From the NCBI RefSeq assembly GCF_014647195.1, contig NZ_BMOS01000002.1:1-64000 (forward strand): a stretch of DNA of 64,000 nucleotides. Direction: 5' to 3'. The stretch's first letter is position 1. Every line of letters starts with the position of its first letter. A program made the position numbers and the translations under genes. This document shows positions 89 through 63,755 of the stretch, one piece after another. Under the pieces are notes generated by a model. The model did not search any database and was not told where the DNA came from. It saw only the letters and a list, made by a program, of their open reading frames with translations. This DNA is from Oceanobacillus indicireducens. Its GTDB lineage: Bacteria; Bacillota; Bacilli; Bacillales; Amphibacillaceae.

Positions 89-186
89 TAGGACAGAGGG
101 TCAGGCAACTGCGCCAGTTGGTGAGCGGGACATCGGGGTCAGAGCAAGTGTCCCAGTTGGGACATTAGGGTCAGTGTACCTGTCCC
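89..186. repeat. GGGACA/TGTCCC dispersed repeat, cluster 1
   Basis: Two clear 28-bp units occupy 127-154 and 159-186. Each begins GGGACA, carries GGGTCAG in the middle and ends TGTCCC. A degenerate third unit lies just upstream, near 90-121. The unit ends are inverted repeats of each other, so each unit can form a small hairpin. Confidence 0.85.
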
Positions 187-544
187 ATTTTTTCACAATT
201 CGTTCCATTCCATTTCAAATAGAGGGCAATGATTTCAGGGAGGATTTCTATTTATTAGTTAAAATTCAGATTATTGGGGATTCAAACGGGAGGCAGTTCC
301 AATTTTATATGATGGTAGTGCATTCGGGAAGATGGAGTTGTCAGAGCACTTTCTAGCGGCTGAATGTTATTGCAGGGCGGAGAGCGGGTGGATCAGTCCT
401 TTTATAGCGAACGAACACGGCAAATGGAAGATAGAATGGCCTTCACTGTAAATGGTAGTTGTTCTAAGGCACAAGGTTTCCTTCACGACGAATTATCTCT
501 TCTAGAAACATAGGAGCCCGCCCTTCCTCTATAAAATCTAACCT

Positions 545-645
545 GGGACAATGCCTCTGACCCCTCTGTCCCACCAAACTGGAACAATGCCTCCGACCCC
601 AATGTCCCACCAAGCTGGGACAAGTGCTCTGACCCCGATGTCCCG
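545..645. repeat. GGGACA/TGTCCC dispersed repeat, cluster 2
   Basis: Three units in the orientation GGGACA-x-GCTCTGACCCC-x-TGTCCC, one with a base change at its left end. The last base is one nucleotide from the stop codon of the minus-strand gene ending at 647, so the cluster forms the immediate 3' flank of that gene. Confidence 0.9.
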
Positions 646-646
646 A

Positions 647-1366
647 TTAAATAGTGATTGTTTTGGGGTGGGCGATTGTTTGGTATTTCTCCAGTTCGGT
701 TGTGGATATGAGGATTTCTGGATAGTTTTGCATGAATTTCATTTCTTCAATCGTTTGGACGGTACCGACAATCGGCTGGATGCCCATTCGTTTAAGAACA
801 GCGAGATCGAGCTGTTGAACCGTTTGAAAATCGAACTTAAGCATATAATAAGATGCCATGAGTTCTTTCAGTAAGAAGAAATCATGAATTCCTGGATTTT
901 CCCTAAGTAAGCCGAGTTTGATCTGCTTCGATAATATGCGCAGTCTAGCGAGTGAATGATGATTTTCCGAAATAATGAAAACATCTTCCATTGCTTGGTG
1001 CTGGCGGATGATATCATACACATTCTCCTCCAGACCGTAATAGAAACCGCTCTGTTTAATTTCGATGGCAGTTTTTATTTTGCCTTTTGTTAAATGGATG
1101 ACTTCTGCGAGGGTGGGAATTCGTTCGTCATGATTGATCGGGAAAGCAAGCAATTCCGCATAGGTGAATTGATTGATTTCACCACGACCGCTCGTTACAC
1201 GGTCGATGGTCGTATCACGCATGACGACGGGGATACCATCTTTCGTCAGATGCACCTCAAATTTTGTATGGGTAAAGTTCAAATCGATTGCTGCCTGAAA
1301 AGAAGACAATGTATTCTCGGGAAATTTTATTGGATAACCGCGCTCCGCAACAGCCTGTATTTTCAT
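647..1366 (-). CDS. glycerophosphodiester phosphodiesterase-like protein, probably catalytically impaired
   Basis: A 239-residue single-domain protein of the GDPD (GlpQ/UgpQ) TIM-barrel family. Recognisable motifs are PENTLSSFQAAI (residues 17-28), TKDGIPVV (41-48) and a later EIK. Active members use a His in an HRG motif, a Glu-x-Asp pair and an HD pair for metal binding and catalysis. Here these read ERG, E-V-H and RD, so three of the usual key residues are replaced while the fold motifs persist. Start ATG follows a GAGAGGAG ribosome-binding site. No signal peptide is seen. The family hydrolyses glycerophosphodiesters from phospholipid or teichoic acid turnover; this copy may bind rather than cleave. 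The family call is secure, the loss of activity is inference. Confidence 0.85.
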   Translation of the reverse strand: MKIQAVAERGYPIKFPENTLSSFQAAIDLNFTHTKFEVHLTKDGIPVVMRDTTIDRVTSGRGEINQFTYAELLAFPINHDERIPTLAEVIHLTKGKIKTAIEIKQSGFYYGLEENVYDIIRQHQAMEDVFIISENHHSLARLRILSKQIKLGLLRENPGIHDFFLLKELMASYYMLKFDFQTVQQLDLAVLKRMGIQPIVGTVQTIEEMKFMQNYPEILISTTELEKYQTIAHPKTITI

Positions 1367-1466
1367 TAAATTCTCCTCTCGATTGGGCTACATATCGATT
1401 CTATGCATCATTACTTTTGATTATACCCAGGGAATGTTAATTTTGGATGAATTGGAGAATAAATGT

Positions 1467-1495
1467 TTGTAAATGGAGAAGAAAAACGGTATAAA
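1467..1495 (+). promoter_or_regulatory. sigma-A-type promoter for the 1530 gene
   Basis: TTGTAA at 1467-1472 and TATAAA at 1490-1495 are separated by 17 bp and lie about 35 bp upstream of the small membrane protein gene. Close to the vegetative consensus; not tested. Confidence 0.55.
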
Positions 1496-1529
1496 ATAAA
1501 AGGAGATTCTAGTAGAGGAGGAAGTGACG

Positions 1530-1808
1530 GTGTGGGATAGTAAAGTTACTTCATGGAAAAGTTATATTTTCCTGATTGCGAGCATCGTAACAAGTTTGTC
1601 CATGATCTTGCTTGGTCCGGTTGCGCAATCTACGAGTGAAACGGTGACAGATATCATCGCAGTTTTTATTATTGTTGGACTAATCGTGTCTATTGTGATG
1701 AGCATTGTTACGTTTGTCTCGAAGCGGGAAAAGAAATTGATTCCTAGTATAGCGCTCATTATCACGTTACTTAATATTGGTGTAATTATATATCTTGCGT
1801 GGTCTTAG
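1530..1808 (+). CDS. small membrane protein, three predicted transmembrane segments
   Basis: About 92 residues and strongly hydrophobic, with membrane segments near residues 10-30, 39-61 and 70-90 and a basic loop (SKREKK) between the second and third. I do not recognise a family. The GTG at 1530 is preferred because GAGGAGG lies about 8 bases upstream; an in-frame GTG at 1524 sits too close to that site. It is one of the few plus-strand genes and ends in a shared bidirectional terminator. No function is proposed. Confidence 0.7.
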   Translation: MWDSKVTSWKSYIFLIASIVTSLSMILLGPVAQSTSETVTDIIAVFIIVGLIVSIVMSIVTFVSKREKKLIPSIALIITLLNIGVIIYLAWS

Positions 1809-1827
1809 GTGAATTTTGCATAAAGAA

Positions 1828-1868
1828 AGAGTGTATGTAGCCACACTAGGCTACATACACTCTTTTTT
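1828..1868. terminator. bidirectional intrinsic terminator
   Basis: A nearly perfect 14-bp stem, AGAGTGTATGTAGCC pairing with GGCTACATACACTCT, followed by six T on the plus strand and preceded by an A-rich stretch. It lies between convergent genes (plus-strand 1808 end, minus-strand 1867 end) and can serve both. Confidence 0.85.
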
Positions 1869-3801
1869 AATCGAAAACGAGTCGCATGAGTTCAGTTGTG
1901 ATTTTCCCGGTGTCATAGCGTTCATAGATGTGTTGATACTCTGATAGCTGCCCACTCTTTTCCAGGTTTTTAATTTTTTCCACCGCCTCATCAACGCTTG
2001 AGACGATGAATTCATGTGGATAGATAAGATCTGCCCCTTCCCAATTGAACACAATCGGCGTTGCTCCGCTTGCCATTCCTTCCATTGGTGCAAGGTGAAA
2101 TGCCTCGAGATCACTCGTGGAAAGAATGACTCCAATGTTTGTCAGCCATTCCGGGATATCGGAGCCAAATTGGGAAAAGACGACATTTTCTTTCCATGGT
2201 GCATTATTAATTTTTTCAAATACCCCTTCGAAATAGGTGATTTCCTTTTTCCTATCCTGCAGCCACGGAAAGTCTTGTGGCATTTTCCCTTTAATGTGGA
2301 GCTCGTAACGTTCGTCCTCTTGCCATAGTTTCTCAAAAATTTCGACTGCGCGGTCAATTCGCTTTAACTTCGGAATAATTCCAATGATTCCGAGATGAAA
2401 TTTGGCATGCTCCTTCTTCGGGTGTTGGAACGCTCTTGTATCAACCATATTTGGGATTAACTTCAGCTTTTTGCGCGGTATCCGGTGAACTCGGTGGAAT
2501 TCCTCGAGCATTTGCGGGCTGATCGTGATGACGCTCTTAACCTTTTTAAAGTCCACCTTTTTCAAAAACTTCGTCTGCAATTCCTGACGATGAACACGAA
2601 TGAACAGCTTCTGACCTTGCTTTACATAATTTTGATAGAAAGCTGAGTTGCCGAGTCCCCACTCACAGAATATAATATCTGCTTTTTGCAATAGCTTCAG
2701 GCTTTTTTCTTTATTATGCTTTGTATGCCCCTTCCAGTTATCAAGCAATACTTTTTTCCCGGTCCGCGCACAACGCTCGATGAACGGGTAAAGAAATTTG
2801 AAATCATGACCGGCAAATAAAATTGTTTCTTGTTTGGCGTTAAATGATCTTAGTGCATCAAGCAATTGCTGTTCGTTTTTTTCGTAATCAAATTCCCTCG
2901 CTAAGACATAGCATTTTTTCGCTGCTGTGTAGTACATCTCCTCGTTCGCGAGTAGTTCTGGAAGGAGAGTTATTAAATCATCTGGTTGTTGGATGAATAA
3001 TGGGTAATCCCTTCCAAGCAGATCGCTGAATTGCTCATTTTCCGGCAAGATAACCGGCTTTCCTGCTTTTGCATAGTGGAGGTAGGAACGGAAATCCGCT
3101 TCCAATACTACTGCAATATCAGTTTCTGTGTCTAAACTATAATAATCCGTTTCATTGTCCTTGTAACGCCAATCGAAGCTCGGAGTTTCACGTTTGATTG
3201 TTTCCATGATTTCCGTGAGCGTGTCGTCCGCTTCTGTAATTGAATTCGGGTAAACCTCTGTAATTCCGCGTCTGTTGACGATGACAGGAATCTGGGCTGA
3301 GACTTTCTCCTTCCACGGTGGAAGGTAGATTATTTTTTCCTGTAATGATTCGATGCGTCTTATATTTTCCTTTTGTTGCATCGAATCAGTAAGGATGAAC
3401 GGATAAGCTTTCAGGCTGTCTTGCACCAGATTCGATTCGACTGGCAGAAATGGGATGACTCTTGCTGCCGGTAGTTTCGTAAGCTTATCCAATTCCTCAA
3501 GTGGTCCCATCCAAATTAGCGTATCGAATTTTTCGGTGATTTTTAAGTAAGTGATCGCTTTTTCATTCGTGTTGATGGCGGCTGATTTTTCTTCCATAAG
3601 TTTTTCCACTGCAAATAGTTTAACTTCTTGATTTTTAGAAATCGATGCCTTGATCACGTCATAGAGCTCGGTTGTTTCGGTCAGAACGTTGATTTTTATT
3701 CTTGTATCATTGGAAGTTATTTGCAAAAGTGAAAGAAATGCATCGTGATGGCCTGTATGCATGCTTTCAGCGATATAGATTAGAATATTTAATCGTTTCA
3801 C
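1867..3801 (-). CDS. glycosyltransferase, C-terminal GT4-type domain
   Basis: A 644-residue protein. The C-terminal half resembles GT-B fold GT4 glycosyltransferases: ITISPQMLEEFHRV and the 'LIPNMVDT' segment near residue 450, then an E-x7-E nucleotide-sugar motif (EAFHLAPME) near residue 588. The N-terminal ~330 residues look like a second degenerate GT-B half with no motif I can name. It overlaps the upstream gene by 4 bp (ATGA), so the two are translationally coupled. No signal peptide or membrane segment is seen, so a cytoplasmic role is likely. Being near TagO- and cell-wall genes suggests surface polysaccharide, teichoic acid or glycoprotein decoration; the acceptor and sugar are unknown. 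Confidence 0.75.
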   Translation of the reverse strand: MKRLNILIYIAESMHTGHHDAFLSLLQITSNDTRIKINVLTETTELYDVIKASISKNQEVKLFAVEKLMEEKSAAINTNEKAITYLKITEKFDTLIWMGPLEELDKLTKLPAARVIPFLPVESNLVQDSLKAYPFILTDSMQQKENIRRIESLQEKIIYLPPWKEKVSAQIPVIVNRRGITEVYPNSITEADDTLTEIMETIKRETPSFDWRYKDNETDYYSLDTETDIAVVLEADFRSYLHYAKAGKPVILPENEQFSDLLGRDYPLFIQQPDDLITLLPELLANEEMYYTAAKKCYVLAREFDYEKNEQQLLDALRSFNAKQETILFAGHDFKFLYPFIERCARTGKKVLLDNWKGHTKHNKEKSLKLLQKADIIFCEWGLGNSAFYQNYVKQGQKLFIRVHRQELQTKFLKKVDFKKVKSVITISPQMLEEFHRVHRIPRKKLKLIPNMVDTRAFQHPKKEHAKFHLGIIGIIPKLKRIDRAVEIFEKLWQEDERYELHIKGKMPQDFPWLQDRKKEITYFEGVFEKINNAPWKENVVFSQFGSDIPEWLTNIGVILSTSDLEAFHLAPMEGMASGATPIVFNWEGADLIYPHEFIVSSVDEAVEKIKNLEKSGQLSEYQHIYERYDTGKITTELMRLVFD

Positions 3802-5588
3802 ATAACCTTCTCCTTTGGAATGAAAGCTTCCATCAAGCTGACGAGCGAATGATGATTATATTTTGTCGTTAAAAAGAATCTGGCAATAACAGGTTTGTTA
3901 TTCGTAATGGAACGGTCAACAAAAGAAGTCATTCGGAAATAATACATCGTGTTGATGCAGTCTTCGATGTAAAAAGCGTCGTATTCCCTACTGCTGTCCA
4001 CAACTCCAACGTACGTGCTTTTCGTCAGCTGGTCAAGCGCATAATTCTTAGCTGCAAAACTAGCGATATAAACCTGGATATTGTCCCGGGCAAGGAGAGC
4101 GTTCATTGCTTGCTCGAAGCAAGGGTACGGTGTAATGAATACGATCCAGTTAACACGACTCGCTGTCTGTTTTTCAATTGTGCGGATGACATTTTGGTAC
4201 TCTTGTTCCGTACGTATTGAGAAAACAATTGTAGCGGACGGCAGCCTTGTCGCATGTTCAATATGGAGACTTTTCGTAATAAAATGCATGAAATCACGAT
4301 AGTTATGCTTCCAATAAATCGTGCGGCTAATCGACCGGTAATCGTCCGCAGCTTGATCCGGATTGTTTTGATAGGCTTGGATCACTTGCTCGAGCTCTGA
4401 TTCTGTTTCATAGATTCGGACTAAACTCTGGTAAATACTACCGTCCAAGGCAAGTTTTTCACAGATTACGAGATGTCCTTCTGCAAGCAGCTCCTCGATT
4501 TGTTTTTCCGTATTATTTGCAGCTTGGATGGTTTCAATGGTGATTGGCTGCTTGTTCGGTGGCTTTTGCTGTATTCGTTGCGCTTCTGTTTCCGTTTTGG
4601 ATTCTGCGTTTGCTTCTGCTGTAGTCTCGCTTAGCACCGTTACTGAGGGATGTTTTTTAAAAACATCGATGGACGGTACACCGGTTGTGTACGGGATGAG
4701 ATATACTGGTGTTTCTCCGGGTGCTTGTTTGTACATGTTAAAGACTACGGGATCGTGAGTCAGTACGAACTTGAAATCAGCAAGCCGCGTCAGTAGTTTG
4801 TCGCATGGTGCCTCAGTTTGTTTGTGCCAAAGAATCATCGGGATATCAGACGTCTGGCACCAAAGTATAAGCCTGCCGATTGGCGATGTCCGGTCTTGTA
4901 TGTCGCCCCATTTAGCTTCATGCAGTTCGCCTGCTTCCATTAAAAGAAAATCAGGGACAGCTTTTGCGAGTGTTTTTCCCCAATTATGTGCGTACAAGCG
5001 GGTTACTTGAGTAACAGCATTTAGGCTTGTTACAGCACTTTGCGGCAGGGCGCCTGCGAATTTCAAATTATTCAAGTGACGAATAGAAGTCTTCTCTGTT
5101 CGCTCTACCGGTAAAAATGGTGACGTGAAAAGATTGTGTATCTCCATTTCTCCTTCCCCATTGATACGTATGGCTAAACGGGCAGCCTTTGTTGACGGGC
5201 TTGGAATAATTTGATGTAATTGATTTAACTGAATCGTATGTTTCTTCGTCTGCTGATTTTCTTCATCGTATTCAATTAGGTAGATCTGATAGTTGAGCGA
5301 GTTTGTCGTATGACCTTCGATGAAGATTGAGTTTTGGGAATGAAGGATGATTTTATTATGACGTTCTCCCAGCCTGGAATAACTGGAACTTGATTCCCAA
5401 AAGTTTACATATGCACTTTCTGTTGTTTTTGATTGTAGATGTATTGTATGATTTTCAATAGAAAGATTGATGAGTGACGGTTGATGGAACCAATTTTTAC
5501 TGTCAAATAACTTGGTCGGAAGAAAATCGATGTGTATCGACTCTGGTTTCTTCAGTTTGTTTTTAATCTTTTCGATAAACAGCATCAT
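3798..5588 (-). CDS. hypothetical protein coupled to the glycosyltransferase gene
   Basis: A 596-residue protein with an N-terminal beta-rich region (residues ~1-160). A middle region with short glycosyltransferase-like stretches (such as LYAHNWGKTLAKAVPDFLLMEAGE) follows, then a low-complexity Thr/Glu/Ala linker near residues 322-350. A C-terminal region resembles a small alpha/beta Rossmann-type or GT-A-like fold (ATIVFSIRTEQEYQNVI). I cannot assign a family with confidence. Its stop overlaps the start of the following glycosyltransferase gene, so the pair probably forms an operon acting on the same surface polymer. No signal peptide or transmembrane helix is visible. Confidence 0.6.
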   Translation of the reverse strand: MMLFIEKIKNKLKKPESIHIDFLPTKLFDSKNWFHQPSLINLSIENHTIHLQSKTTESAYVNFWESSSSYSRLGERHNKIILHSQNSIFIEGHTTNSLNYQIYLIEYDEENQQTKKHTIQLNQLHQIIPSPSTKAARLAIRINGEGEMEIHNLFTSPFLPVERTEKTSIRHLNNLKFAGALPQSAVTSLNAVTQVTRLYAHNWGKTLAKAVPDFLLMEAGELHEAKWGDIQDRTSPIGRLILWCQTSDIPMILWHKQTEAPCDKLLTRLADFKFVLTHDPVVFNMYKQAPGETPVYLIPYTTGVPSIDVFKKHPSVTVLSETTAEANAESKTETEAQRIQQKPPNKQPITIETIQAANNTEKQIEELLAEGHLVICEKLALDGSIYQSLVRIYETESELEQVIQAYQNNPDQAADDYRSISRTIYWKHNYRDFMHFITKSLHIEHATRLPSATIVFSIRTEQEYQNVIRTIEKQTASRVNWIVFITPYPCFEQAMNALLARDNIQVYIASFAAKNYALDQLTKSTYVGVVDSSREYDAFYIEDCINTMYYFRMTSFVDRSITNNKPVIARFFLTTKYNHHSLVSLMEAFIPKEKVM

Positions 5589-5692
5589 AGCAATCCCTCA
5601 CCTTATATATTGACTTAAATTATATCACGAAATGTGATTTAAATATATTTAATGAGAGGGAAAAGATAGGTATTTTTGAGGTTTTCACGAAT

Positions 5693-5745
5693 TGAAAAGA
5701 GATGATTCAGAATGCTACTGGATCATCTCTTTTTATTTCGGGGTC
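5693..5745. terminator. intrinsic terminator hairpin
   Basis: AAAGAGATGAT...ATCATCTCTTTTT forms an ~14-bp stem with A- and T-rich flanks on either side. It lies ~110 bp beyond the stop codon of the minus-strand nucleotidase gene and most likely terminates that gene. Confidence 0.75.
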
Positions 5746-5852
5746 CATTTTTATTACTTCATAAGTTCGATGGTGATTTTTTCTATGAGCGTGATTTCTC
5801 CCCTTCTTCTAGGGCATTTTTCATTACCATCAGTTTTTTTCCGTTTTTCCAT

Positions 5853-8462
5853 TTATTCTTGTTCCGACACTACGGTAATTCTTCCTTCCTTTTCAGTTGG
5901 AATGTTATCACTGCCAAGGCGTACGAGTTGGTCTCTGAAATTTTCCCAATCCGATTGTCCAAGGTCCGTTACACGGCCTTCCGCATAGGCCTCTTCAAAA
6001 ACAGTGAACCCGTCTCCGCCTTTTGCAGTGAATGCATTTGTAGCAATCGTGTAGGTTTCTTTATCTTCCACTTCCAGGAAACTGCCATCTGCTGTTTCAT
6101 ACTTGAGAGATATGACGCGGCTTCCAGCTGGCTCAGATGCGTCAAATTCAACTTTACCACCGGCGACATGCAGGAACCCGCCATTCTCGCTTGGGTAGTT
6201 ACCTACACTTATTTCAAAGGCCTCCTTCAATTCAGCACCTGTTACATCCATGACTGCCAGTGTGTTACCAAATGGAAGAACTGCGATGACTTCCCCTACT
6301 GTAACTGGACCGGCATCGATTGGCGCTCGAATTCCGCCACCATTTTGCAATGCCATTATTACATTTTCATCATAAACCTTTGCAGCTTGCAGCATGCCAT
6401 CGGTAATAACGTTTCCAAGAATCGTTTCGTTTTTACGTACACTTTCACCTGTTTCACTGCCTTTGTCCCCAGTTCGTGGGTTTGTTAGCGGTTCTTCTAA
6501 AGTTACACCAATTTCTTCCTGAGCAACTTCTTCTACTTGCTCTTTATATTTTTCAAGCAAGAGCGCTGCTTCCGGATCTTCTTCTTGTTCGCTGACTGGG
6601 ATTAATTTACCTGTTTGTGTAACGACTACCCCATTTTCGTCAAATTCAACGTCAAGCAATCCAAGATTCGCATTGCCGTTCCCTGTCTGTACGATAATGG
6701 TGGGGTCTTTCGCTGCCCCAGATTCATCTGTATCCACGATGACTGGTTCCTCTAGTACGGTGTGGCTATGCCCACCAACGATGACATCGACGCCGTCAAT
6801 CTGCTTTGCTAATTCTAAATCATTGTCCACTGCAGGGTTATCATCGAAACCGATATGAGTAATCGCAACAATTTTATTGACACCTTGATCTTCAAATGCT
6901 TGTACCGCTTTTTCCGCCTCTTCCAGATAATCTTCAAATTCGATATCTACTGGACTTGAAATACCGACTGTATCGACAGTTGTCAAGCCGAAGATTCCAA
7001 CTTGTTCTCCTTCAACCTCTTTAATGATTCCATTGTAAATTTTCCCGTTGGCTGGATCAGAGGACAGGAGATCACTAAAAAGACCAGTGAATTTCTCATC
7101 CTTACTGAAATCGACATTACTGCTGACAAATGGGAACATCGCACCTTTTACAAAGTCAACAAGCGCTTGGTGACCTTCTGGTGATGAGCCAAGATCGAAC
7201 TCATGGTTTCCGAATGTCATCGCATCATACTCCATATAATTCATGAATTCCAAGTCTGCTTGTCCAAGAAATTCATTAAAGTACAATGTACCTGTGAAAA
7301 CATCTCCTGCATCAAGGAGTAATGCTTCGGGATTTTCGGCCCGCACATTATTTACAGCAGTTGCCCGTTTTGCGACTTCATCTAGATTAGCATGGGTGTC
7401 GTTCGTATGCATGATCGTTAAGTTGAAATTCTCTTCTTCTGGTTTCACGTATCCTTGCAATTGTTCGTAGATAGATGAGTTGACTGCACTTTGCCCACCG
7501 AAGATAGAAACTTCTTCTGGTTCGTTTTCTTCCAAATAAGTTGCAAGGGATGCTGGTAGCCGGTCATGAACCAGTGTTAATGCTGCGCCTTCTTTCGCTG
7601 TAAGCACTCCACCAGTGAGAGCATCGGCATAATCTTTACCAGATGCAACATAGACATTTTCTGGGTTTACATTAAATGCTTCAAGTAAGGCAATGTTTAT
7701 TTCATAACGGTCTTTTCCTCGAATTCTCTCTGGTCTTGGAAGCTCGTTTGCAACATCTTTAGATATAACATTTTCTCCACCAATGATAATTGTTTCGTTA
7801 ACACCAAGTTTTTCCAACTCTACATTTGTTGCTTCAGGTAGACGGTCTGAAAGGCTTAGGAGAACTGGGATTCCTTCTTGCGCTGCAATACCAGCAATCG
7901 ACAATGCATCCGCAAAAGACTGGCCGCTTGCGACTACTGCCTTTTCCGCTTTACCGTCAGTCAGTTCTGCTGCAATTTGAGCTGCGGTTTCATATCTTGT
8001 ATCTCCAGCAATCCGGGTAACGTTGTATCCAGCTTTTTCGATTACCTCAGCCGCTTCGTCGCTTACTGCTGTTTTTCCTCCGAGAATATGTACTTCAGAG
8101 GCTCCTAAGCGCTCTAATTCTTCTAAAGTGTCATTTAGAAAAGAATCATTCGGTGTTAATAGAATCGGTGCATCCCAAGCATAAGCAAGTGGCACACCTG
8201 CAAGTGCATCAGCAAATTCCAAACCGTTTGCGATAATCACTTTTTCAGCTGAACCATCTGCCCAGCCTGCTTGGCTAATTTCAATGGAGGTGCGGTAACG
8301 ATCAGCTCCGTAAATTCGTTCGATAATTTCTGCCTTATATTGGGCCTCGGCTCGGGGTTGCTCGGGTTGGATTGGGTCTGCGAGCACATTGAGTGACATT
8401 GTTCCCGAAGCAACGATTGCTGCTGCGGATAATCCTGCTACCATTTTTCTTTTAAAAGACAT
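5853..8462 (-). CDS. cell-wall-binding (CWB2) repeat protein fused to a 5'-nucleotidase
   Basis: An 869-residue secreted protein. Residues 1-28 form a signal peptide (SFKRKMVAGLSAAAIVASG). Three CWB2 repeats follow (about 47-335), each with a GxDRYxT-type opening and an IxGGxxAVS or IIGG close. CWB2 modules anchor proteins non-covalently to the wall by binding anionic polymer. The rest is a two-domain 5'-nucleotidase/UDP-sugar hydrolase: a metallophosphatase part with TNDTHAN, DAGDVFTG, GNHEFD and GGHSHT metal-ligand motifs (about 348-600), then a substrate-specificity domain with NGGGIR and AxGGDGF (about 650-850). It should release phosphate from extracellular nucleotides while attached to the wall. 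RBS GGAGGAG precedes the ATG. Confidence 0.92.
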   Translation of the reverse strand: MSFKRKMVAGLSAAAIVASGTMSLNVLADPIQPEQPRAEAQYKAEIIERIYGADRYRTSIEISQAGWADGSAEKVIIANGLEFADALAGVPLAYAWDAPILLTPNDSFLNDTLEELERLGASEVHILGGKTAVSDEAAEVIEKAGYNVTRIAGDTRYETAAQIAAELTDGKAEKAVVASGQSFADALSIAGIAAQEGIPVLLSLSDRLPEATNVELEKLGVNETIIIGGENVISKDVANELPRPERIRGKDRYEINIALLEAFNVNPENVYVASGKDYADALTGGVLTAKEGAALTLVHDRLPASLATYLEENEPEEVSIFGGQSAVNSSIYEQLQGYVKPEEENFNLTIMHTNDTHANLDEVAKRATAVNNVRAENPEALLLDAGDVFTGTLYFNEFLGQADLEFMNYMEYDAMTFGNHEFDLGSSPEGHQALVDFVKGAMFPFVSSNVDFSKDEKFTGLFSDLLSSDPANGKIYNGIIKEVEGEQVGIFGLTTVDTVGISSPVDIEFEDYLEEAEKAVQAFEDQGVNKIVAITHIGFDDNPAVDNDLELAKQIDGVDVIVGGHSHTVLEEPVIVDTDESGAAKDPTIIVQTGNGNANLGLLDVEFDENGVVVTQTGKLIPVSEQEEDPEAALLLEKYKEQVEEVAQEEIGVTLEEPLTNPRTGDKGSETGESVRKNETILGNVITDGMLQAAKVYDENVIMALQNGGGIRAPIDAGPVTVGEVIAVLPFGNTLAVMDVTGAELKEAFEISVGNYPSENGGFLHVAGGKVEFDASEPAGSRVISLKYETADGSFLEVEDKETYTIATNAFTAKGGDGFTVFEEAYAEGRVTDLGQSDWENFRDQLVRLGSDNIPTEKEGRITVVSEQE

Positions 8463-8550
8463 TATGCATTCTCCTCCTCAACTTTTTAACTCTACTATTA
8501 CTATACGAAACGAGTGTTACATTTGATGGAAGGTTTTGTTAAAAACATTT

Positions 8551-8578
8551 AATATAATGCTATTATTATAGATTACAA
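8551..8578 (-). promoter_or_regulatory. candidate sigma-A promoter for the nucleotidase gene
   Basis: On the minus strand TTGTAA (8573-8578) and TATATT (8551-8556) are 16 bp apart and ~90 bp upstream of the start codon. Weak support from sequence alone. Confidence 0.4.
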
Positions 8579-8583
8579 AGTAA

Positions 8584-8628
8584 AAAAAGAGGCTTTATGA
8601 ATTTATCCATAAGGGTCTCCCTTTTTGT
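8584..8628. terminator. weak terminator-like hairpin after the CWB2 remnant
   Basis: An imperfect stem (AGGCTTTATG with CCATAAGGGTCT) flanked by A7 on the left and T5 on the right. It lies directly 3' of the broken CWB2 gene on the minus strand and also upstream of the intact nucleotidase gene. Confidence 0.5.
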
Positions 8629-8637
8629 ATTGGAGTT

Positions 8638-10254: not shown

Positions 10255-10305
10255 AATATTCTCCTAATTAACATATTCAACAAACAATTTACACGTATCG
10301 ATTAA

Positions 10306-10354: not shown

Positions 10355-10419
10355 GGGACATGGGGACGGAGGCGTTGTCCCGATTTGGAGCGGGACATGG
10401 GGTCAGAGCTCTTGTCCCG
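10355..10419. repeat. GGGACA/TGTCCC dispersed repeat, cluster 3
   Basis: Two direct units in the GGGACA-x-GGGGTCAGAGC-x-TGTCCC orientation, the first reading GGGGACGGAGGC in its centre. They lie between the divergent tagO and c-subunit-like genes, about 110 bp from either. Confidence 0.9.
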
Positions 10420-11001: not shown

Positions 11002-11142
11002 GGGACAGATGCCCTGCCCCCAGTGTCCCACTGAAGTTTGGGACAACAGCACTGACCCCAAAAAGGCATCTCCCCTGGGACAGTGCCTCTGACCCCAATG
11101 TCCCGCTCAAACTGGGACAGTTGCCCTGACCCTGTGTCCCGG
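11002..11142. repeat. GGGACA/TGTCCC dispersed repeat, cluster 4
   Basis: Four units in the GCTCTGACCCC orientation; the second has lost its right end. The cluster fills most of the gap between the terminator at 10992 and the ThrE gene start. Confidence 0.9.
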
Positions 11143-14146: not shown

Positions 14147-14265
14147 GGGACACGGGGTCAGAGACCTTGTCCCAGATTTAGCGGGACACGGGGTTGGAGC
14201 GGGACGCGGGGTCAGAGCTCCTGTCCCAGATTTAGCGAGACGCGGGGTCAGAGCTTTTGTCCCGG
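14147..14265. repeat. GGGACA/TGTCCC dispersed repeat, cluster 5
   Basis: Three to four units in the GGGGTCAGAGC orientation, some fused or with a changed end (GAGACG, GGGACG). The first base is two nucleotides past the zwf stop codon. Confidence 0.9.
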
Positions 14266-19848: not shown

Positions 19849-19875
19849 GGGACTAGGGGTCAGAGCATTTGTCCC
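19849..19875. repeat. GGGACA/TGTCCC dispersed repeat, single copy 7
   Basis: One isolated unit, GGGACT-x-GGGGTCAGAGC-x-TGTCCC, between the spoIIQ terminator and the leader ORF of spoIIID. Confidence 0.85.
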
Positions 19876-25193: not shown

Positions 25194-25256
25194 GGGACAG
25201 GGGGTCAGAGCGATTGTCCCACTTTTAGTGGGACAGATGCTCTGACCCCCTGTCCC
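25194..25256. repeat. GGGACA/TGTCCC dispersed repeat, cluster 8 (inverted pair)
   Basis: Two units in opposite orientation around a 9-bp spacer, so GGGGGTCAGAGC pairs with GCTCTGACCCCC. The whole forms a ~27-bp-stem hairpin with small internal mismatches. It follows the atp operon terminator and precedes ywzB. Confidence 0.92.
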
Positions 25257-33261: not shown

Positions 33262-33350
33262 GGGACATTGGGGTCGGAGGCGTTGTCCCATTGAGGGTGG
33301 GACGTTGGGGTCAGAGCCGTTGTCCCATTGAGGTATTGCCTCCGACCCCA
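33262..33350. repeat. GGGACA/TGTCCC dispersed repeat, cluster 9
   Basis: Two direct units (GGGGTCGGAGGC and GGGGTCAGAGCC centres) and a third partial unit in the opposite orientation (GCCTCCGACCCC), ending 10 bp from the protease stop codon. Confidence 0.88.
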
Positions 33351-40972: not shown

Positions 40973-41035
40973 GGGACAAGGGGGTCAGAGCATTTGTCCC
41001 ATTTCGCGGGACAAATGCTCTGACCCCCCTGTCCC
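40973..41035. repeat. GGGACA/TGTCCC dispersed repeat, cluster 10 (inverted pair)
   Basis: Two units in opposite orientation (GGGGGTCAGAGCATTTG and CAAATGCTCTGACCCCC), perfect to 17 bp either side of an 10-bp loop region, so they form one long hairpin. Lies between mntP and ywlE. Confidence 0.93.
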
Positions 41036-48041: not shown

Positions 48042-48138
48042 TTCATTCCACTCCTTTTTGCCCTGAATCCTGCGGAGACAGAGTTATTGTAAGAGCCGTC
48101 ATAAGTGATAAAAAACTTATCAAAACTCACATAAAAGA

Positions 48139-49531: not shown

Positions 49532-49692
49532 TATCACGTATTAACGGTCTGTAATACCCCCTACCTCTAAACATGAGGGAAAACCCAATATGTGAAGGCT
49601 GGGGGATAAAAAGTCCGTAAATCCCTGATTCTGTTTAACTAACATTCATTGAGAGGATAAGGATACCCCTAGTGAATGCGTTTCACTTTATG
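49532..49692 (-). repeat. two-hairpin element E2, upstream of rho
   Basis: Read on the minus strand it begins CATAAAGTGAAACGCATTCA, has the weak first hairpin (CATTCACTAGGGG/CTCTCAATGAATG), the conserved linker AATGTTAGTTAAACAGAATC, a second hairpin with TATCCCCC/GTAGGGGTATTAC and ends GACCGTTAATACGTGATA. It stops 36 bp before the rho start codon, in the same direction as rho. Confidence 0.85.
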
Positions 49693-53393: not shown

Positions 53394-53492
53394 TATCACG
53401 TATTAACGGTCGATACGTAAATCCCTGATTCTGTTCAACTAACATTCAATGGAGGGGTAAGGGTACCTCCACTGAATGAGTTTCACTTTATG
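53394..53492 (-). repeat. two-hairpin element E3, upstream of transaldolase (second hairpin deleted)
   Basis: On the minus strand it begins CATAAAGTGAAACTCATTCA; the TAA in this sequence is the fbaA stop codon. Hairpin 1 pairs CATTCAGTGGAGG with CCTCCATTGAATG (13 bp with one G-U). The linker GTTAGTTGAACAGAATCAGG follows, then the end GACCGTTAATACGTGATA, with hairpin 2 missing. It stops 26 bp before the transaldolase start. Confidence 0.85.
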
Positions 53493-54978: not shown

Positions 54979-55014
54979 TATTTTTTGCCCCCTTTTTCAT
55001 TCTCCCCATTTCTT

Positions 55015-55041
55015 AAGTTCGCTAAAAAAAGAAAATATCCT
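55015..55041 (-). promoter_or_regulatory. candidate sigma-H promoter of spo0F
   Basis: On the minus strand AGGATATT (55034-55041) and GCGAAC (55017-55022) have the spacing of a sigma-H promoter (AGGA...GAAT), with one mismatch at the -10. B. subtilis spo0F has a sigma-H promoter. Confidence 0.45.
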
Positions 55042-55131
55042 GCTTTTTTAATGAATTATGCAAATTGTTTACAGGGAAATATTGGATAAAGACATATTTT
55101 TAAGGTCCTAAGTCAATTTTCGCAAATGTTG

Positions 55132-55581
55132 ATTGCTTTCATTCAGCGTAAGTGTCGGCAACTTTCTTCTGGAGGTTCGCAGTCCAGACACCTCTCGCTT
55201 TCCGCGGGCGGCTGGTGAGCCTCCTCGTGGGCAAGCCCACTGCGGGGTCTCACCAAGCCTACCCTCCCGCAGGAGTCTCGAGGTGTCTGGACTGCTCCGA
55301 GGAAAGGCTAAATTTGGAGCACTATTTTTCAATTTAGGAATAGAATGCTGATCTGAAGAGAATAGTTTCCATTTATAATAATTGCTCCTATCAGTTCAAT
55401 TGCCCGGCGGACGGTGACTCCTACGGGAATAGCACGAGTCCAGACCTGAGCAGGAAGCGGTTTTCTTCCGAGGAGGCTGAGGCCGTGCCTTAGGATGCGC
55501 ATCCGTCCGCCGGGCAACTGAACGGTAATTAGAACGCCAATAAAATGAATGCGCAAAATACTTACGCTGAATGAAAGCAAT
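55132..55581. repeat. 450-bp composite palindrome between spo0F and pyrG
   Basis: A perfect 22-bp outer inverted repeat (ATTGCTTTCATTCAGCGTAA... and its complement) lies at 55132-55153 and 55560-55581. Inside are two more palindromes: 55183-55300 (GCAGTCCAGACACCTC with GAGGTGTCTGGACTGC), the common Bacillaceae CTTTCCGCGGGC/CCCGCAGGAGTCTCG type, and 55394-55530 (CAGTTCAATTGCCCGGCGGA with TCCGCCGGGCAACTGAACGG). No gene. Confidence 0.85.
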
Positions 55582-55592
55582 AAGCAAGGGTC

Positions 55593-57247
<1,655 letters not shown>

Positions 57248-57310
57248 CTAAGATTCTATTTATATGTTGCCCGAAGACAAACATTTATAACTTATTTGGC
57301 AGCACCCTCT

Positions 57311-57410
57311 AAAATAATAAAAGCGCCTTCCCATTTTTTTCTGGGAAAACGCCTGTTTGTCGATTAAGGAGCCCAAATAAAATTCTACTTATCCTATGAA
57401 AAAAAGTCAA
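57311..57410 (-). promoter_or_regulatory. pyrG promoter and GGGCTC-start attenuator
   Basis: On the minus strand TTGACT (57405-57410), 17-bp spacer, TAGAAT (57382-57387), then GGGCTCC starting at 57374, seven bases past the -10. ~20 bp later an intrinsic terminator forms (GGCGTTTTCCCAG with TGGGAAGGCGC, 57323-57354) with a T-rich tail at 57311-57322. In B. subtilis low CTP lets polymerase stutter at GGGC, adding G residues that pair with the U/C side of this terminator. The UUUUCCC arm here could pair with such poly-G. Confidence 0.88.
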
Positions 57411-57427
57411 GTGGGCTTCCTCATTTT

Positions 57428-57925
57428 TTATTCTTCTTCCTCGTCGTCAAGGTCGATTTCTACATCGAGTTCTTCCTCGTCTTCTTCGTCTAGATCTTCG
57501 TCAAAGTCTTCATCGAATTCATCAATTCCCACTATCTCTCCGTCCTCGTCAACCTCTTCTTCGCCAAGCTCAACAAGGTCTCCTTCGTATTCCAGTTCTT
57601 CCTCTTCATCAAATTCGTCTGCTTTTTTCTTTTTCCGTTTCTTAGGTGTTTGTGTGATTTGTTCGTCTGCTTGGTCGATTGGGTACCATTCTTTTAGGCC
57701 CCATATGTTTGAGCCTAGTGTTATAAAGCGACCGTCAACGTTGAGCTCTGTGTAGAATTGAGCAATTTGATTTTCTTTTGCTTGTTTGGTTAGTCCTTTT
57801 AGTTCTGTAATTTGGTTATAGAGTTCCTGGAAATCTAATGCTTTTTTTGTGTCTTTTAAAATGAGACTGGCTAGGCCGAGCATGGATTTTCCTTTTAATT
57901 CTTCGCGGCTGTATTGATCTAACAC
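57428..57925 (-). CDS. rpoE: RNA polymerase delta subunit
   Basis: 165 residues. Structured N-terminal HARE-HTH domain (LIL KDTKKALDFQELYNQI; NIWGLKEWYPID) then a long acidic tail, almost only Glu and Asp, about 60 residues. Delta increases polymerase recycling. The GTG start has AAAGGAG nine bases upstream. Directly upstream of pyrG as in B. subtilis. Confidence 0.95.
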   Translation of the reverse strand: MLDQYSREELKGKSMLGLASLILKDTKKALDFQELYNQITELKGLTKQAKENQIAQFYTELNVDGRFITLGSNIWGLKEWYPIDQADEQITQTPKKRKKKKADEFDEEEELEYEGDLVELGEEEVDEDGEIVGIDEFDEDFDEDLDEEDEEELDVEIDLDDEEEE

Positions 57926-58097
57926 AAATACGCACTCCTTTTACTGTATATTAATAAATGATTGATTACATTTCTATATTACTAAGATAAACATACCTTT
58001 CATTATATACAAGTATGTAGTGTTTATGCTAGGGTTTTTGGCTAAAAAGTTAAGTTTTCAGTGGGATATTTCATATTGACTTCCTTTTTCCAAGGAT

Positions 58098-58545
58098 AAG
58101 ACGTTGCATAAGGAAAAAAACATCTTTTATTTTCTCTTTTAGACAGATGTAGCGCGGCATTGAGAAAACAAATAACGGTTCTTTTCCCTTTTGGAAGGGA
58201 ACTGCGTAATAATGGGAAGAGAAATACCGTTTATTTTCCCATTTGAACGGCGGGTGCATAGTATTGGGAAAAGAATTGCTGTTTATTTTCCCATTTGAAC
58301 GGCGGGTGCATAGTATTGGGAAAAGAATTGCTGGTTATTTTCCCATTTGAACGGCGGGTGCATAGTATTGGGAAAAGAAACGACGGTTATTCGCCCATTC
58401 GGACAAAGTGACCCTATGATTTGGAAAAGAAACACCGGTTATTTGCCCATTCGAACAAAGTGACCGCAGGATTGGGAAAAGAAACACCGGTTATTTGCCT
58501 ATTCGGACAAAGTGAGCGCACGATTGAGAAAAGAAACACCATCCC
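58098..58545. repeat. 52-bp tandem repeat array C
   Basis: About eight and a half units of exactly 52 bp (consensus opening GGGAAAAGAA, middle TTTTCCCATT and GAACGG or GACAAAG, ending ATAGTATT or a variant). The centre three are nearly identical, the outer ones diverge. It fills most of the 734-bp gap between icmF and rpoE. Confidence 0.88.
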
Positions 58546-58579
58546 GAGCAGTAAAATACATAACTACCCTATACACGAA

Positions 58580-58619
58580 AAATCCGAACAAACCGCTCTC
58601 CCTCGATTTGTTCGGATTT
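58580..58619 (-). terminator. icmF terminator
   Basis: AAATCCGAACAA (58580-58591) and TTGTTCGGATTT (58608-58619) form a perfect 12-bp stem; on the minus strand followed by TTTTTCG. Confidence 0.85.
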
Positions 58620-58659
58620 ACAATCTTAATTATAAACGTTATGCTCTACCCCAAAAAAA

Positions 58660-61600
58660 TCACATATTCCTTCGATACTGCCCGCCGACTTCATATAAAG
58701 CAGTTGTGATTTGGCCGAGGCTCGCAACTTTGACGGTTTCGAGGAGTTCGGCGAAGATGTTGCCTCCTTGGACTGCGACTTGTTTGAGACGACTTAGAGC
58801 TGCTTCTGTTTCGTCTGCATGCTGCTTTTGGAATTTGCGCAGCTCTGTAATTTGATGCTGTTTCTCTTCCTGGGAGGCACGGGCAAGTTCCATGGAATCA
58901 ATCTCCTCATCACTTGGCGGGTTCGGGTTTACATACGTGTTCACCCCGATAATCGGAAGTTCACCGGAATGTTTCTTGCTTTCATAGTAAAGTGATTCTT
59001 CCTGGATTTTCCCTCGCTGGTATTGCCGCTCCATTGCTCCGAGCACACCTCCACGGTCATTCATCCGCTCAAATTCTTGGAGCACCGCTTCTTCGACAAG
59101 ATCTGTCAATTCCTCAACGATAAAAGAACCTTGGGTAGAGTTTTCATTTTTCGTCAGTCCGAATTCTTTATTGATGATCATTTGAATCGCCATCGCTCGG
59201 CGCACGGATTCTTCTGTCGGTGTCGTGATTGCCTCGTCATATGCATTCGTGTGTAAGGAATTTGTATTATCTTGGATTGCTAGAAGTGCTTGCAGTGTTG
59301 TACGGATATCGTTAAAGTCAATCTCTTGGGCGTGTAGGGAACGTCCAGAAGTCTGGACATGGTATTTAAGTTTTTGACTCCGCTCATTTGCTCCGTATTT
59401 TTCCCTTAAAACGATCGACCAAATCCTGCGGGCAACCCGGCCGATTACCGTATATTCCGGATCCAGGCCATTCGAAAAGAAGAAGGACAGGTTTTGTGCG
59501 AATTTATTCACGTCCATGCCCCGGCTTAAATAATATTCCACATAGGTGAACCCATTTGCGAGTGTGAAGGCGAGCTGGGTAATTGGATTTGCACCAGCCT
59601 CCGCAATATGGTAGCCCGAGATGGAGACAGAATAATAGTTGCGCACATTTTTTTCAATAAAATATTCCTGGATATCCCCCATCATGCGCAGGGCGAATTC
59701 TGTTGAGAAGATACATGTGTTTTGCCCTTGATCTTCTTTTAAAATATCGGCTTGAACGGTTCCGCGAATGGTGGAAACCGTTTTATTTTTAATAGCTTCA
59801 TATTCCTCATCTGTCGGTTTCCGGCCATGTTCTTCTGTAAATTTATCGATTTGTTGATCGATTGCTGTATTGAAATACATCGCTAAAATAATCGGGGCCG
59901 GTCCGTTAATTGTCATTGAGACGGAGGTGAGCGGGTTCGTCAAATCAAAGCCTGCATACAATTTTTTCATATCTTCGAGGGTACATATATTGACGCCACT
60001 TTCCCCGACTTTTCCGTAAATATCCGGGCGCTCTGCCGGGTCTTCACCGTATAGAGTAACAGAGTCAAAGGCGGTCGAAAGCCGTTTTGCCTCGGAATCT
60101 TTTGATAAATAATGGAATCTCCGGTTCGTCCGCTCTGGCGTCCCTTCTCCAGCGAATTGACGGGTTGGATCTTCCCCTTCCCGCTTGAACGGGAATACTC
60201 CTGCTGTGAATGGGAATCTGCCCGGAACGTTTTCTTTCATAAGCCAGCGGAGGCGTTCACCCCAGTCTTGGAATTTCGGGAAGGCGACTTTCGGGATCTT
60301 CAGGCCAGACAAGGATTCTGTTGTGATTTCCGTAACGATATCCTTATCGCGGACTTTAAAGGTCATCGTGTCTTGACTATATTTTTCCTGCGTATCATCC
60401 CATGATTCAAGCAACTCAAGCGAATGATTGCTCAGCTGTTTTTTATATTGGGTTATCGTTTGTTCTAGTAATTCTTTCGCTTCAGGGTCCTCGATGATTT
60501 CCAAGGTTCCTTGCAGCTGATACAGTTTTCGCGCTATCTCGCTTTGGTTTTCCGTTTGTTTATTATAATCGCGGACGATACTAGCAATTTCCCGTAAATA
60601 ATGGCGGCGATCTCCGGAGATGATTTGATTTTGCTTCTCGGAAAGGACATGCCTTTCAAAATCAACCTCCTCCTCCCATCCGTAGCGCTCGTTCAGCGTA
60701 TCGATAATGGAAGCGAATAGAGAATTCGTCCCTGTATCATTGAATTGGCTCGCAATTGTTCCGAATACTGGATATTTAGTTTTATCTTGACCGAAAAGCA
60801 TGCGGCTCCGCTCATATTGTTTACGCACTTGATTCAACGCATCTTCTGAACCCCGTTGTTCGAACTTGTTAATGACGATAAAATCTGCGTAATCAATCAT
60901 ATCAATCTTCTCAAGCTGAGTGGGAGCACCGAATTCAGCGGTCATGACGTACATGGAAAGATCCGTGACATCGGTAATCGCAGCATTTCCCTGACCAATC
61001 CCGCTCGTTTCCACAATAACAAAGTCAAAACCAGTTGCCCTGACCACATCAAGGACATCATTAATTGCCGTAGAAAGTTCGTCCCGCGATTCCCTCGTTG
61101 CAAGTGAGCGCATATAGACGCGATCATGAAAAATAGCATTCATACGAATCCTATCACCGAGTAATGCTCCGCCAGTTTTCCGTTTCGTCGGGTCGATGGA
61201 GATGACGGCAATCTTTTTATCGGGAACTTCATTAAGGAAGCGGCGTATGAGTTCATCCGTAAGCGAACTTTTCCCCGCTCCACCTGTACCCGTAATCCCA
61301 AGCACGGGAATCGCTTGATCTGCTTTACTGCGAAATTCTTCGAGAAGCTGTTGTTTCTCCTTGGAATCGCTCGGCGTGTTTTCCATATACGTAATGAACT
61401 TCGCCATGGCGTCCCGCTCACTCTTGTATAAACGCTCTTTCTCCTTTTCAATCTGAAGCGGCGTTGGAAAGTCGCTCGCTTCCATCATTCGGTTAATCAT
61501 ACCTTGAAGACCGTATTTACGACCATCCTCAGGGGAAAATATCCAGTCAACCCCATAATTATGAAGTTCTTTAATTTCCCTCGGGATAATCGTTCCACCT

Positions 61601-61902
61601 CCACCACCGAAAACTTTAATATGGTCGGCATCGTTTTCTTTTAATAGATCGATAATATATTTAAAATATTCGACGTGTCCGCCTTGATAAGAAGAGACGG
61701 CAATCGCTTGAGCATCTTCCTGAATCGCAGCGTAGACGACTTCTTCCACGGAACGGTTATGACCGAGGTGGATAACTTCTGCCCCAGTTGCTTGCAGGAT
61801 TCGGCGCATTATATTGACCGAGGCATCGTGGCCATCAAATAGGCTTGATGCCGTGACAAAACGAATCGGATTTTTCGGTTTGTAAACTTCTACTTGTTGC
61901 AT
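58660..61902 (-). CDS. icmF: fused isobutyryl-CoA mutase IcmF
   Basis: About 1080 residues. N-terminal B12-binding domain with DGHDAS and [10 protein letters not shown] (residues ~15-135), a MeaB-like G-protein domain with P-loop [17 protein letters not shown] and [15 protein letters not shown] (~200-400), and a large C-terminal mutase domain with [35 protein letters not shown]. It interconverts isobutyryl-CoA and n-butyryl-CoA with adenosylcobalamin. ATG at 61902 follows GGGGAGGAG. Downstream of the TetR gene, 25 bp gap. Confidence 0.96.
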
Positions 61903-61927
61903 GATGTTTCTCCTCCCCTTTGGATCA

Positions 61928-62548
61928 TCATTTTTTATGCAAGAGGCCATGGAGGTTCAGCTTAATTTGGATATCGATGTATTCTTCTATCGTGAACTTC
62001 TGTTGCAGAATCCACCGACGAAAGCCCCACATATGGCCTTGAACAAAGATATTATTCGCTGCTATGCTTACTTCCTCTTCATTTAATGCATCCGGGTAGC
62101 AAGAAAGGATAAGCTTCTCAAGCATAGCGACCATATCTTTCTCCTTTTGCAGCACATATTTCCTCGTCTCCTTATTTAAGCCTTTTATTTCTTGATAGAG
62201 AACGAGAATTTCTTCCTGCATGTCATCCATAAGCTCATAATAAAACTTGAAAACTGCCTTCAAATTTTCCTCTGAAGGGTTTTCCAGCTGCAGCTCTGTT
62301 TCAAAATGATCGCGCACGCCATCATAAATGTAATCGCAAACAAGAAAAAGGACATCTTCCTTCTTTCTAATATATTCATAAAGTGTACCGATACTGAAGC
62401 CAGATTCTTTAGCGATTTCCCTCGTTGTCGTCCGGTGGAAGCCCTTCTCTTTAAAAAGCCGAATCGCGCCTTGAATCATCTGATCGCGGCGTTTTTTGAT
62501 CAGGTCTTCGTCTTTTACGGAGGAGATAATTCGACTCTTATCCATCAT
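61928..62548 (-). CDS. TetR/AcrR family transcriptional regulator
   Basis: 206 residues. N-terminal DNA-binding HTH ([20 protein letters not shown], near residues 42-60), then an effector-binding helical domain. Its start overlaps the meaB stop, and icmF follows, so it is embedded in the acyl-CoA operon and probably senses an acyl-CoA or fatty acid. Similar regulators (FadR/PsrA-type in Bacillus) control beta-oxidation; the exact effector is unknown. Confidence 0.88.
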
Positions 62549-63485
62549 CTGTAAAGCCTCCTTCCTTCTTCCATCTTGCGTACCAGTCTATCGCGAGTTT
62601 GTAAGGATCCGCATCTGCCTTGATTGGCTCAAGGTGTCTCTTTGATTCGATAAATTGTTTCACCTCTCGCCAAATTTCTTCGCGGATGAGTTCATAGACT
62701 TCAAGTTCTTGCTGCATCTTACGTTTTCTTTTTCCTTCGTGGGTCTTGTAGAGATATTCATGATGGTCTTTGATTTTTCCCCACAGTTTATCGATTCCTT
62801 TATTTTCCGTCGTGATCGTCTTGATAATCGGGGTTTCCCGTTCTTCGGTTGCGGTGATCATGACAAGTTCTTTCAGTAATGCTTTCAATTTACCGAAGCC
62901 TGGGAGGTCTGCTTTGTTCACGACGAAAAGATCAGCGATTTCCATAATGCCTGCTTTAAAAATCTGGAGCACATCCCCACTGTTCGGGGTAAGGACGACG
63001 GCTGTTGTGTCGACGATTTTCATGATGTCGAGCTCGGACTGGCCGACACCGACTGTTTCGACTAAAATCACATCAAACCCGTAGGCATCACATATGCGCA
63101 CCGCATCCTTCGTCGCACGGGCAAGACCGCCGAGACTGCCGCGCGTCGCCATACTGCGGATGAATACGCCGTCATCAAGGAAATGTTCATTCATCCGGAC
63201 CCGGTCGCCGAGGAGTGCGCCGCCACTAAATGGACTTGTTGGATCAACCGCGATAACAGCGCACGTTTTCCCCTCACTCCGGATCTGGGTGACAAGCCGG
63301 TTTACAAGTGAGCTCTTACCTGCGCCAGGTGAGCCAGTCAGCCCTACATATACAGCGTGTTTCCGCTCGCTGAACACCGCACTTAACAACTCCAGCTTTT
63401 CCGGATGATCATTCTCCACCATCGTAATCGCCCGAGCAAGCGCACGTATATCCTTTTGTTTCAACCGTTCAACTAACGTCTGCAT
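62538..63485 (-). CDS. meaB: MeaB/ArgK-type GTPase chaperone
   Basis: 315 residues from ATG 63485 (MQTLVERLKQKDIRALARAI). P-loop [45 protein letters not shown] and VNKADLPG identify the family that protects and reloads B12-dependent mutases. The frame is open ~50 codons upstream, but that part is translated repeat sequence; GGAAGGG is 4 bases before 63485. The last bases overlap the TetR gene. It neighbours an IcmF that already has its own G-domain. Confidence 0.93.
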   Translation of the reverse strand: MQTLVERLKQKDIRALARAITMVENDHPEKLELLSAVFSERKHAVYVGLTGSPGAGKSSLVNRLVTQIRSEGKTCAVIAVDPTSPFSGGALLGDRVRMNEHFLDDGVFIRSMATRGSLGGLARATKDAVRICDAYGFDVILVETVGVGQSELDIMKIVDTTAVVLTPNSGDVLQIFKAGIMEIADLFVVNKADLPGFGKLKALLKELVMITATEERETPIIKTITTENKGIDKLWGKIKDHHEYLYKTHEGKRKRKMQQELEVYELIREEIWREVKQFIESKRHLEPIKADADPYKLAIDWYARWKKEGGFTDDG

Positions 63486-63504
63486 GATGCCCTTCCTTTC
63501 CACC

Positions 63505-63755
63505 GGGACACTAGGGTCAGAGCTGTTGTCCCAGTTTGCTGGGACAACAGCTCTGACCCTAGTGTCCCACTTCTTACTGGGACAGGTGCTCTGACTCCAC
63601 TGTCCCGCTTCACACTGGGACAGGCGCTCTGACCCCACTGTCCCGCTTCATACTGTGACAGGCGCTCTGACCCCGTGTCCCACTTCTTACTGGGACAAGT
63701 GCTCTGACCCCGTGTCCCAACCCGACTGGGACAGGTGCTCTGACCCCAGTGTCCC
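63505..63755. repeat. GGGACA/TGTCCC dispersed repeat, cluster 11 (largest)
   Basis: Seven units in 251 bp. The first two form an inverted pair (GGGTCAGAGCTGTTGTCCC and GGGACAACAGCTCTGACCC), the following five are direct repeats in GCTCTGACCCC orientation with 9-11-bp spacers. The cluster occupies the whole gap between the acyl-CoA dehydrogenase stop and meaB. Confidence 0.93.

Follow-up and report, generated by a model that had tools for sequence, protein, structure and literature searches.

The window analyzed here is the stretch of 64,000 nucleotides (C2:1-64000) that opens contig NZ_BMOS01000002.1, referred to as C2, in the draft genome of Oceanobacillus indicireducens (3.87 Mb, 89 contigs). 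Between its genes lie blocks of a short repeat, whose main form is GGGACA-N3-GCTCTGACCCC-N1-3-TGTCCC, and the subject of this study is that repeat and its relation to a Y1 transposase gene farther along the contig. Allowing a single mismatch, we find the core GCTCTGACCCC at 23 places in the window; shuffled sequences contain 0.42 matches on average, and 0/100 shuffles reach 23. When the ends are included, the window holds 30 units, or 29 in 11 blocks under a stricter frame, and the longest block has seven units. This recount agrees with a first-pass annotation, made from the letters alone, that listed about 30 copies at 11 intergenic loci in arrays of up to seven. The spacers between units, which it placed at 8-17 bp, range from 4 to 18 bp, with 27 and 47 bp also occurring. 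Its description of the core as conserved has to accommodate the variants CCTCTGACCCC, CCTCCGACCCC, and GCACTGACCCC, which are found among the C2 units. Over the 260 kb of C2 (window included) we count 83 units with up to four substitutions and none with the reversed sequence. The motif GGGGWSAS is present in 67 of these, every time as GGGGTCAG, and CTGACCCC has been lost from 16. Nor is the family a local artifact of few copies: a pattern comprising both ends and TGACCCC finds 157 exact copies in the whole genome, and the reversed pattern finds none.

None of the 83 units lies mostly within a predicted gene, though 78% of the 260 kb is coding, which bears out the initial statement that the repeats always fall outside genes. 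The genes on C2 were predicted with a simple purpose-made gene caller, which starts the transposase gene too late. Two called genes flank 78/83 units, with 45 units in tandem, 22 in convergent, and 11 in divergent gaps; the corresponding intergenic bases number 36134, 7601, and 11559. A preference for convergent gaps was considered and rejected, as the excess is not significant when counted by gap (8/32, P = 0.07). A block edge stands within 6 bp of the codon on 17/35 stop-codon sides, where 5000 random placements average 7.5 and never exceed 14, and on 0/29 start-codon sides. A preference for 3' ends is thus present, and the repeats are indeed often near a stop codon, although several blocks are located away from stops. 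Selection may favor this 3' placement.

The window contains no transposase associated with repetitive extragenic palindromic (REP) sequences, as had been noted; the gene is found farther along C2, 166 kb past the window. It occupies C2:230316-231074 and encodes a 253-residue HUH/Y1 tyrosine transposase that matches PF01797 (E = 6.9e-17) and conserves the HUH motif and the catalytic tyrosine. Repeats flank it on both sides, the nearest being a minus unit 303 bp upstream and a minus/plus pair 21 bp downstream. The NCBIfam model REP_Tyr_transpos scores 66.4 bits against the protein, under its cut-off of 80. A single-sequence search identifies no relative of solved structure, and a profile search of solved structures retrieves the E. 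coli REP transposase 4ER8 at E = 0.00044. The AlphaFold model of a 56% identical relative from Paraliobacillus salinarum (mean pLDDT 89, pTM 0.70) also has 4ER8 as its best structural match (E = 1.8e-8), followed by IS200/IS605 transposases, and features predicted C-terminal helices. Matches to helix-turn-helix (HTH) families are weak, with a best E of 0.021 for the C2 protein and HTH_23 in 6/48 relatives at E up to 0.01; a PHROGs search gave no match at E 0.01. The second of the two Y1 genes in the genome, on contig C47, encodes a short IS200-type protein, and no repeat core occurs in the 12 kb surveyed around it. The suggestion that the repeats resemble a REP family served by its own transposase is therefore supported by a repeat-flanked Y1 gene whose relative is closest in predicted fold to 4ER8.

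The same arrangement recurs among relatives. We compared 109 related-gene loci and dropped five duplicates, leaving 69 at 47% identity or above (own included) and 35 below. The core lies within 600 bp of the transposase gene in 52/69 of the former and 1/35 of the latter, with reversed controls at 0 in both groups. Among the 69 loci, the nearest upstream unit is minus in 33 and plus in 6, and the nearest downstream unit is plus in 34 and minus in 10; the two-sided loci have the minus/plus order in 23/31. Units close to a given transposase resemble one another more than they resemble those at other loci (P = 0.0005, 31 loci). On inspection by eye, many relatives' repeats carry GGGGACAG. The inner motif reads TGTCCC in most listed relatives and TGACCC in the window's genome, in genome G043, and in part of G053.

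High copy number also tracks the transposase. Copies of GGGACAN{5,9}TGWCCCN{1,4}TGTCCC were counted in 118 genomes (own included), and a transposase was regarded as close at E below 1e-70, a cut-off set after the table was seen. At least 10 copies are present in 15/23 genomes with a close transposase versus 0/95 others (Fisher P = 1.4e-13, relatedness ignored), where the highest count is 4. If the broken gene of G017 is counted as close, the split becomes 15/24 versus 0/94. Exact-pattern copies reach 183 per Bacillota genome.

Unit neighbors less than 60 bp apart on C2 are ordered minus/plus in 18 cases, plus/plus in 16, minus/minus in 8, and plus/minus in 2. The minus/plus pairs have spacers of 3-10 bp, and their arms are more alike than the arms of different pairs (P = 0.01 for the core, P = 0.0006 for the tail). 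Because the repeats flanking the transposase genes share the order of this commonest dispersed pair, the pair looks like a gene-less element, and it may well represent the element minus its gene. The pair adjacent to mntP folds into a very stable 29-bp stem (-34.3 kcal/mol, z -11.7). In G040, 15/18 close minus/plus neighbors are 61-63 bp apart from start to start (100 listed of 118 places), a uniform distance, as movement of the whole pair together would produce. Nineteen stretches chosen from the listed places of this genome include 16 simple pairs, with spacers of 34-35 bp in 14, 45 bp in one, and 9 bp in one. A between-species comparison took in 171 units located no more than 1.5 kb from a transposase: 85 have plain ends, 55 are changed on one side only, and in 31 the GGGNNN/NNNCCC stem is changed on both sides. 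The changed ends are complementary in 17/31, some rows being shifted readings, and provide mild support for a single-unit hairpin. Near-perfect hairpin variants, such as GGGACATTGGGGTCTGACCCCAATGTCCC with its 13-bp stem, are observed in G043 (Paraliobacillus salinarum), mostly on its contig C12.

The copies are crowded around the transposase gene. In the window's genome, 57/157 copies reside on C2, which makes up 6.8% of the genome; for copies more than 2 kb from the gene, the figure is 50/150, with 10.3 expected. In other genomes, the copies that share a contig with the transposase gene and lie more than 2 kb from it likewise number 9/36 in G018 (expected 0.45), 13/18 in G026 (1.2), 30/54 in G043 (5.3), 9/35 in G058 (1.6), 55/63 in G066 (9.9), 24/26 in G095 (2.8), 10/46 in G106 (0.96), 3/14 in G038 (0.35), and 2/15 in G059 (0.18). 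Binomial P values exaggerate this contig enrichment, as paired copies are not independent. For G033, G053, and G040, the share of random centers with as many repeat loci is 0.024, 0.008, and 0.009 at a width of 50 kb (combined 0.0002), 0.077, 0.012, and 0.029 at 25 kb (combined 0.002), and 0.014, 0.030, and 0.029 at 100 kb (combined 0.0009), where the genome of G033 is a single contig, G040 is represented by 100 listed of 118 places, and genome sizes are rounded. In total, crowding is detected in 13 of the 14 genomes tested, drawn from the 15 with at least 10 copies (G056 was left out). The idea that older copies lie farther from the transposase was not retained; mismatches increase with distance (rho 0.26, P = 0.018), but the units are non-independent.

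Comparison of orthologous gaps, as proposed in the first-pass annotation, reveals the exact repeat to be absent from the sites examined in relatives. The next gene could be located beside mntP in 20 of 28 genus genomes (own included), and no exact copy is present in the syntenic mntP gap of 19 relatives of the same genus, nor within 1.5 kb on either side of mntP in 27 genus relatives. A 47.6-kb contig of the sister genome G001 is largely syntenic with C2:36.7-83.6 kb and has no exact copies, versus 12 units at four gaps in the window's genome. Where the pair stands at mntP, G001 has what appears by eye to be a terminator-like hairpin with a T run.

Very probably, the repeats belong to the REP/terminal inverted repeat (TIR) kind of short mobile elements that carry no gene; their origin would lie in the terminal inverted repeats around a Y1 (HUH) transposase gene, and that transposase would copy them. 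The substrate would be a single-stranded copy of either the repeat or the inverted pair, which the transposase would fold and cut, and the cut copies would be inserted mostly nearby, at short range. They would then persist in intergenic gaps, chiefly just past stop codons, presumably because they do the least harm there. It is an even call whether, in addition, mainly short-range spread has surrounded every such transposase gene with its own cloud of repeats, spanning from tens of kb to about two hundred kb. If so, the cloud is a built-in record of the gene's past locations and of the reach of each copying event, and in Bacillota such clouds would provide a natural assay for local single-strand transposition.

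Several observations weigh against transposase-driven spread. A single strain of this species was covered, and movement is deduced rather than seen directly; clean empty sites are not discernible at the sister gaps, which are too diverged. The core is missing within 600 bp in 17/69 loci; one of these is that of G043, where the units differ in length. Among genomes with a close transposase, eight hold only 0-5 copies. Four of these were examined: G012, G007, and G096 have variant flanking inverted repeats missed by the pattern, and G079 has none. The co-occurrence split therefore partly reflects the pattern, as variant flanking repeats go uncounted. The variant inverted repeats are those of loci L079 (G012), L085 (G007), and L086 (G096), and the ends in G012 are changed to GGGACG...CGTCCC. 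With respect to crowding, G067 has 21 copies and 0/20 on the transposase contig beyond 2 kb (expected 0.9), and the random-center P values reach 0.03-0.08 at some other widths. Transposase and repeat distances correlate weakly (Mantel rho 0.16, P = 0.053, 40 loci), and co-divergence of the two was set aside. Finally, single units fold weakly, and covariation in the single-unit hairpin is absent within the window's genome except for one marginal pair (P = 0.049).

An addition compatible with transposase-driven spread is that some of the copies at stops now also serve as terminators or mRNA 3' ends. This is conceivable, though we lean against it. The abutment of blocks on stop codons is what such a role predicts, and the loss of CTGACCCC from 16/83 units is in line with it; the same placement is explained by avoidance of harm, however, and many units are away from any stop codon. 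It is improbable that the crowding is a property of an insertion-tolerant region and not of the enzyme. Such a region could be suspected from the gene at C2:247456-248910, 17 kb from the transposase, which is also near the G043 transposase (74% identity), so that the two genomes may share a transposase location, and from three adjacent genes at C2:243203-245218 that are matched at 41-49% in locus L120. When the predicted genes of C2:214-248 kb were compared with 67 transposase loci of 3.4-20 kb each, however, only five gave matches; near neighborhoods, which are all that this test covers, thus mostly differ, and crowding recurs in 13/14 genomes in spite of this. Least credible of all is that the repeats are host regulatory sites (terminators or host-protein binding sites) spread by selection and not by the transposase: the excess at stop codons and the strong mntP hairpin, positioned where the sister genome has a terminator-like one, suit that explanation, but high copy number tracks the transposase, no exact copy occurs in the 19 syntenic mntP gaps of other genus members, and the copies crowd around one gene.

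Transposase-copied repeats of this kind are already known, and what is added here is a clear case in Bacillus-like bacteria. TIRtrons consist of a Y1 transposase (TIRYT) gene between terminal inverted repeats, some of which share GGGGWSAS, and in some genomes they have dispersed copies in dimers or clusters, in families that the paper calls moderately abundant (Di Nocera et al. 2013, PMC3733652). In the main text of that paper, the terms Firmicutes and Clostridi are absent and Bacill appears only for B. cereus bcr1; the hosts in its Figure 9 may include Bacillota. The present system likewise has a Y1 gene flanked by inverted repeats, and most of its units on C2 carry GGGGWSAS, but in contrast to families described there as moderately abundant, its copies run to 183 in one genome, and in Bacillota. 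Our search of the open-access literature, in text and not figures, found no prior description of these repeats in Bacillota.

The TnpA-Y1 proteins of subclass 2.1 are long, with a C-terminal extension of the HTH kind, and are probably the TIRYT proteins according to the relevant part of the survey that defines them, which also states that automatic and manual searches gave no REP-like sequences nearby (Quentin et al. 2018, PMC6006769). The C2 transposase is similar in length and, by the model of its relative, in having C-terminal helices; its HTH matches are weak, and we set it beside this subclass by description. Contrary to the portion of the report cited, the repeat core is nearby in most of our loci. 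To judge from the same portion, only repeats with a GT[AG]G foot may have qualified in the automatic search. REPtrons, together with the bacterial interspersed mosaic elements (BIMEs) and REPINs of E. coli and Pseudomonas, share with our system a single flanked transposase gene, intergenic copies, and inverted pairs, and the fold nearest to that of the modeled relative is the REP transposase 4ER8. Unlike classical REPtrons, it has a longer protein, and GTAG/GTGG is found directly at the 5' foot in 0/83 units and within 8 nt in 3/83. The REP/BIME resemblance seen initially thus stands for the transposase link and fails for the foot, and the motif fits the TIRtron/TIRYT kind. The best reading is that the system is to be filed under TIRtrons and works like REPtrons, without the GTAG foot.

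In the portions of earlier studies bearing on distribution, next-neighbor REP distances above 200 bp fit a random model in P. fluorescens SBW25 (Bertels and Rainey 2011, PMC3116915), four proteobacteria show an accumulation of REPs around the rayt gene, within regions no larger than two hundred kb, and strains with a rayt gene hold more REPs (Nunvar et al. 2010, PMC2817692). Set against the four proteobacteria in that account, crowding here extends to nearly all of the Bacillota genomes tested and to repeats of another type. A transposase group reported without REP-like repeats is now probably tied to large dispersed families in Bacillota, which joins two bodies of work, on TIRtrons and on REPtrons. 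The crowding offers a measure of how far such elements jump, and Bacillus-like hosts are a convenient place for testing what REP transposases do.

The repeat blocks of the window are listed in Table 1. For the four neighboring genes named in the first-pass annotation, the models matched are GDPD, glucose-6-phosphate dehydrogenase, Mntp, and acyl-CoA dehydrogenase, in accord with the names given.

Table 1. Repeat blocks in the window, with orientation and position relative to genes.
Positions	Strand	Units	Relation to genes
127..186	-	two repeat units	
545..644	+	three repeat units	last unit 2 bp from GDPD stop codon (gene 647-1366, minus)
10355..10418	-	two repeat units	divergent-gene gap
11002..11140	+	three repeat units and, at 11040, a degenerate unit	
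14147..14263	-	three repeat units	first unit 2 bp past glucose-6-phosphate dehydrogenase stop codon
14353..14425	+	two repeat units	
19849..19875	-	single repeat unit	
25194..25256	.	inverted pair in minus/plus order	49 bp downstream of ATP synthase epsilon gene
33262..33326	-	two repeat units	34 bp downstream of subtilase gene
40973..41035	.	inverted pair	2 bp from mntP stop codon
63505..63755	.	seven-unit array (one minus, six plus)	3 bp from acyl-CoA dehydrogenase stop codon

Other repeats and a structured RNA were observed as well. An Rfam scan of the window gives a single match, to the L31-Firmicutes ribosomal protein leader RNA at 48051-48083, which is unrelated to the repeats. Two 77-base copies, 86% identical and in register 3800 bases apart (window 49616-49692 and 53416-53492), are unlike the GGGACA repeat. 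Of 16 tandem arrays on the 260 kb of C2, 6 differ in unit sequence yet all repeat at exactly 52 bp (or 104/156). Two are in the window, at C2:35700-35871 and 58159-58540, and four lie beyond it, at 70700-70913, 81053-81224, 126081-126272, and 253884-254025; all six are between predicted genes. On contig C127 of the sister genome G001, 4/5 arrays share the 52-bp period, at 2165, 8110, 41452, and 46937.

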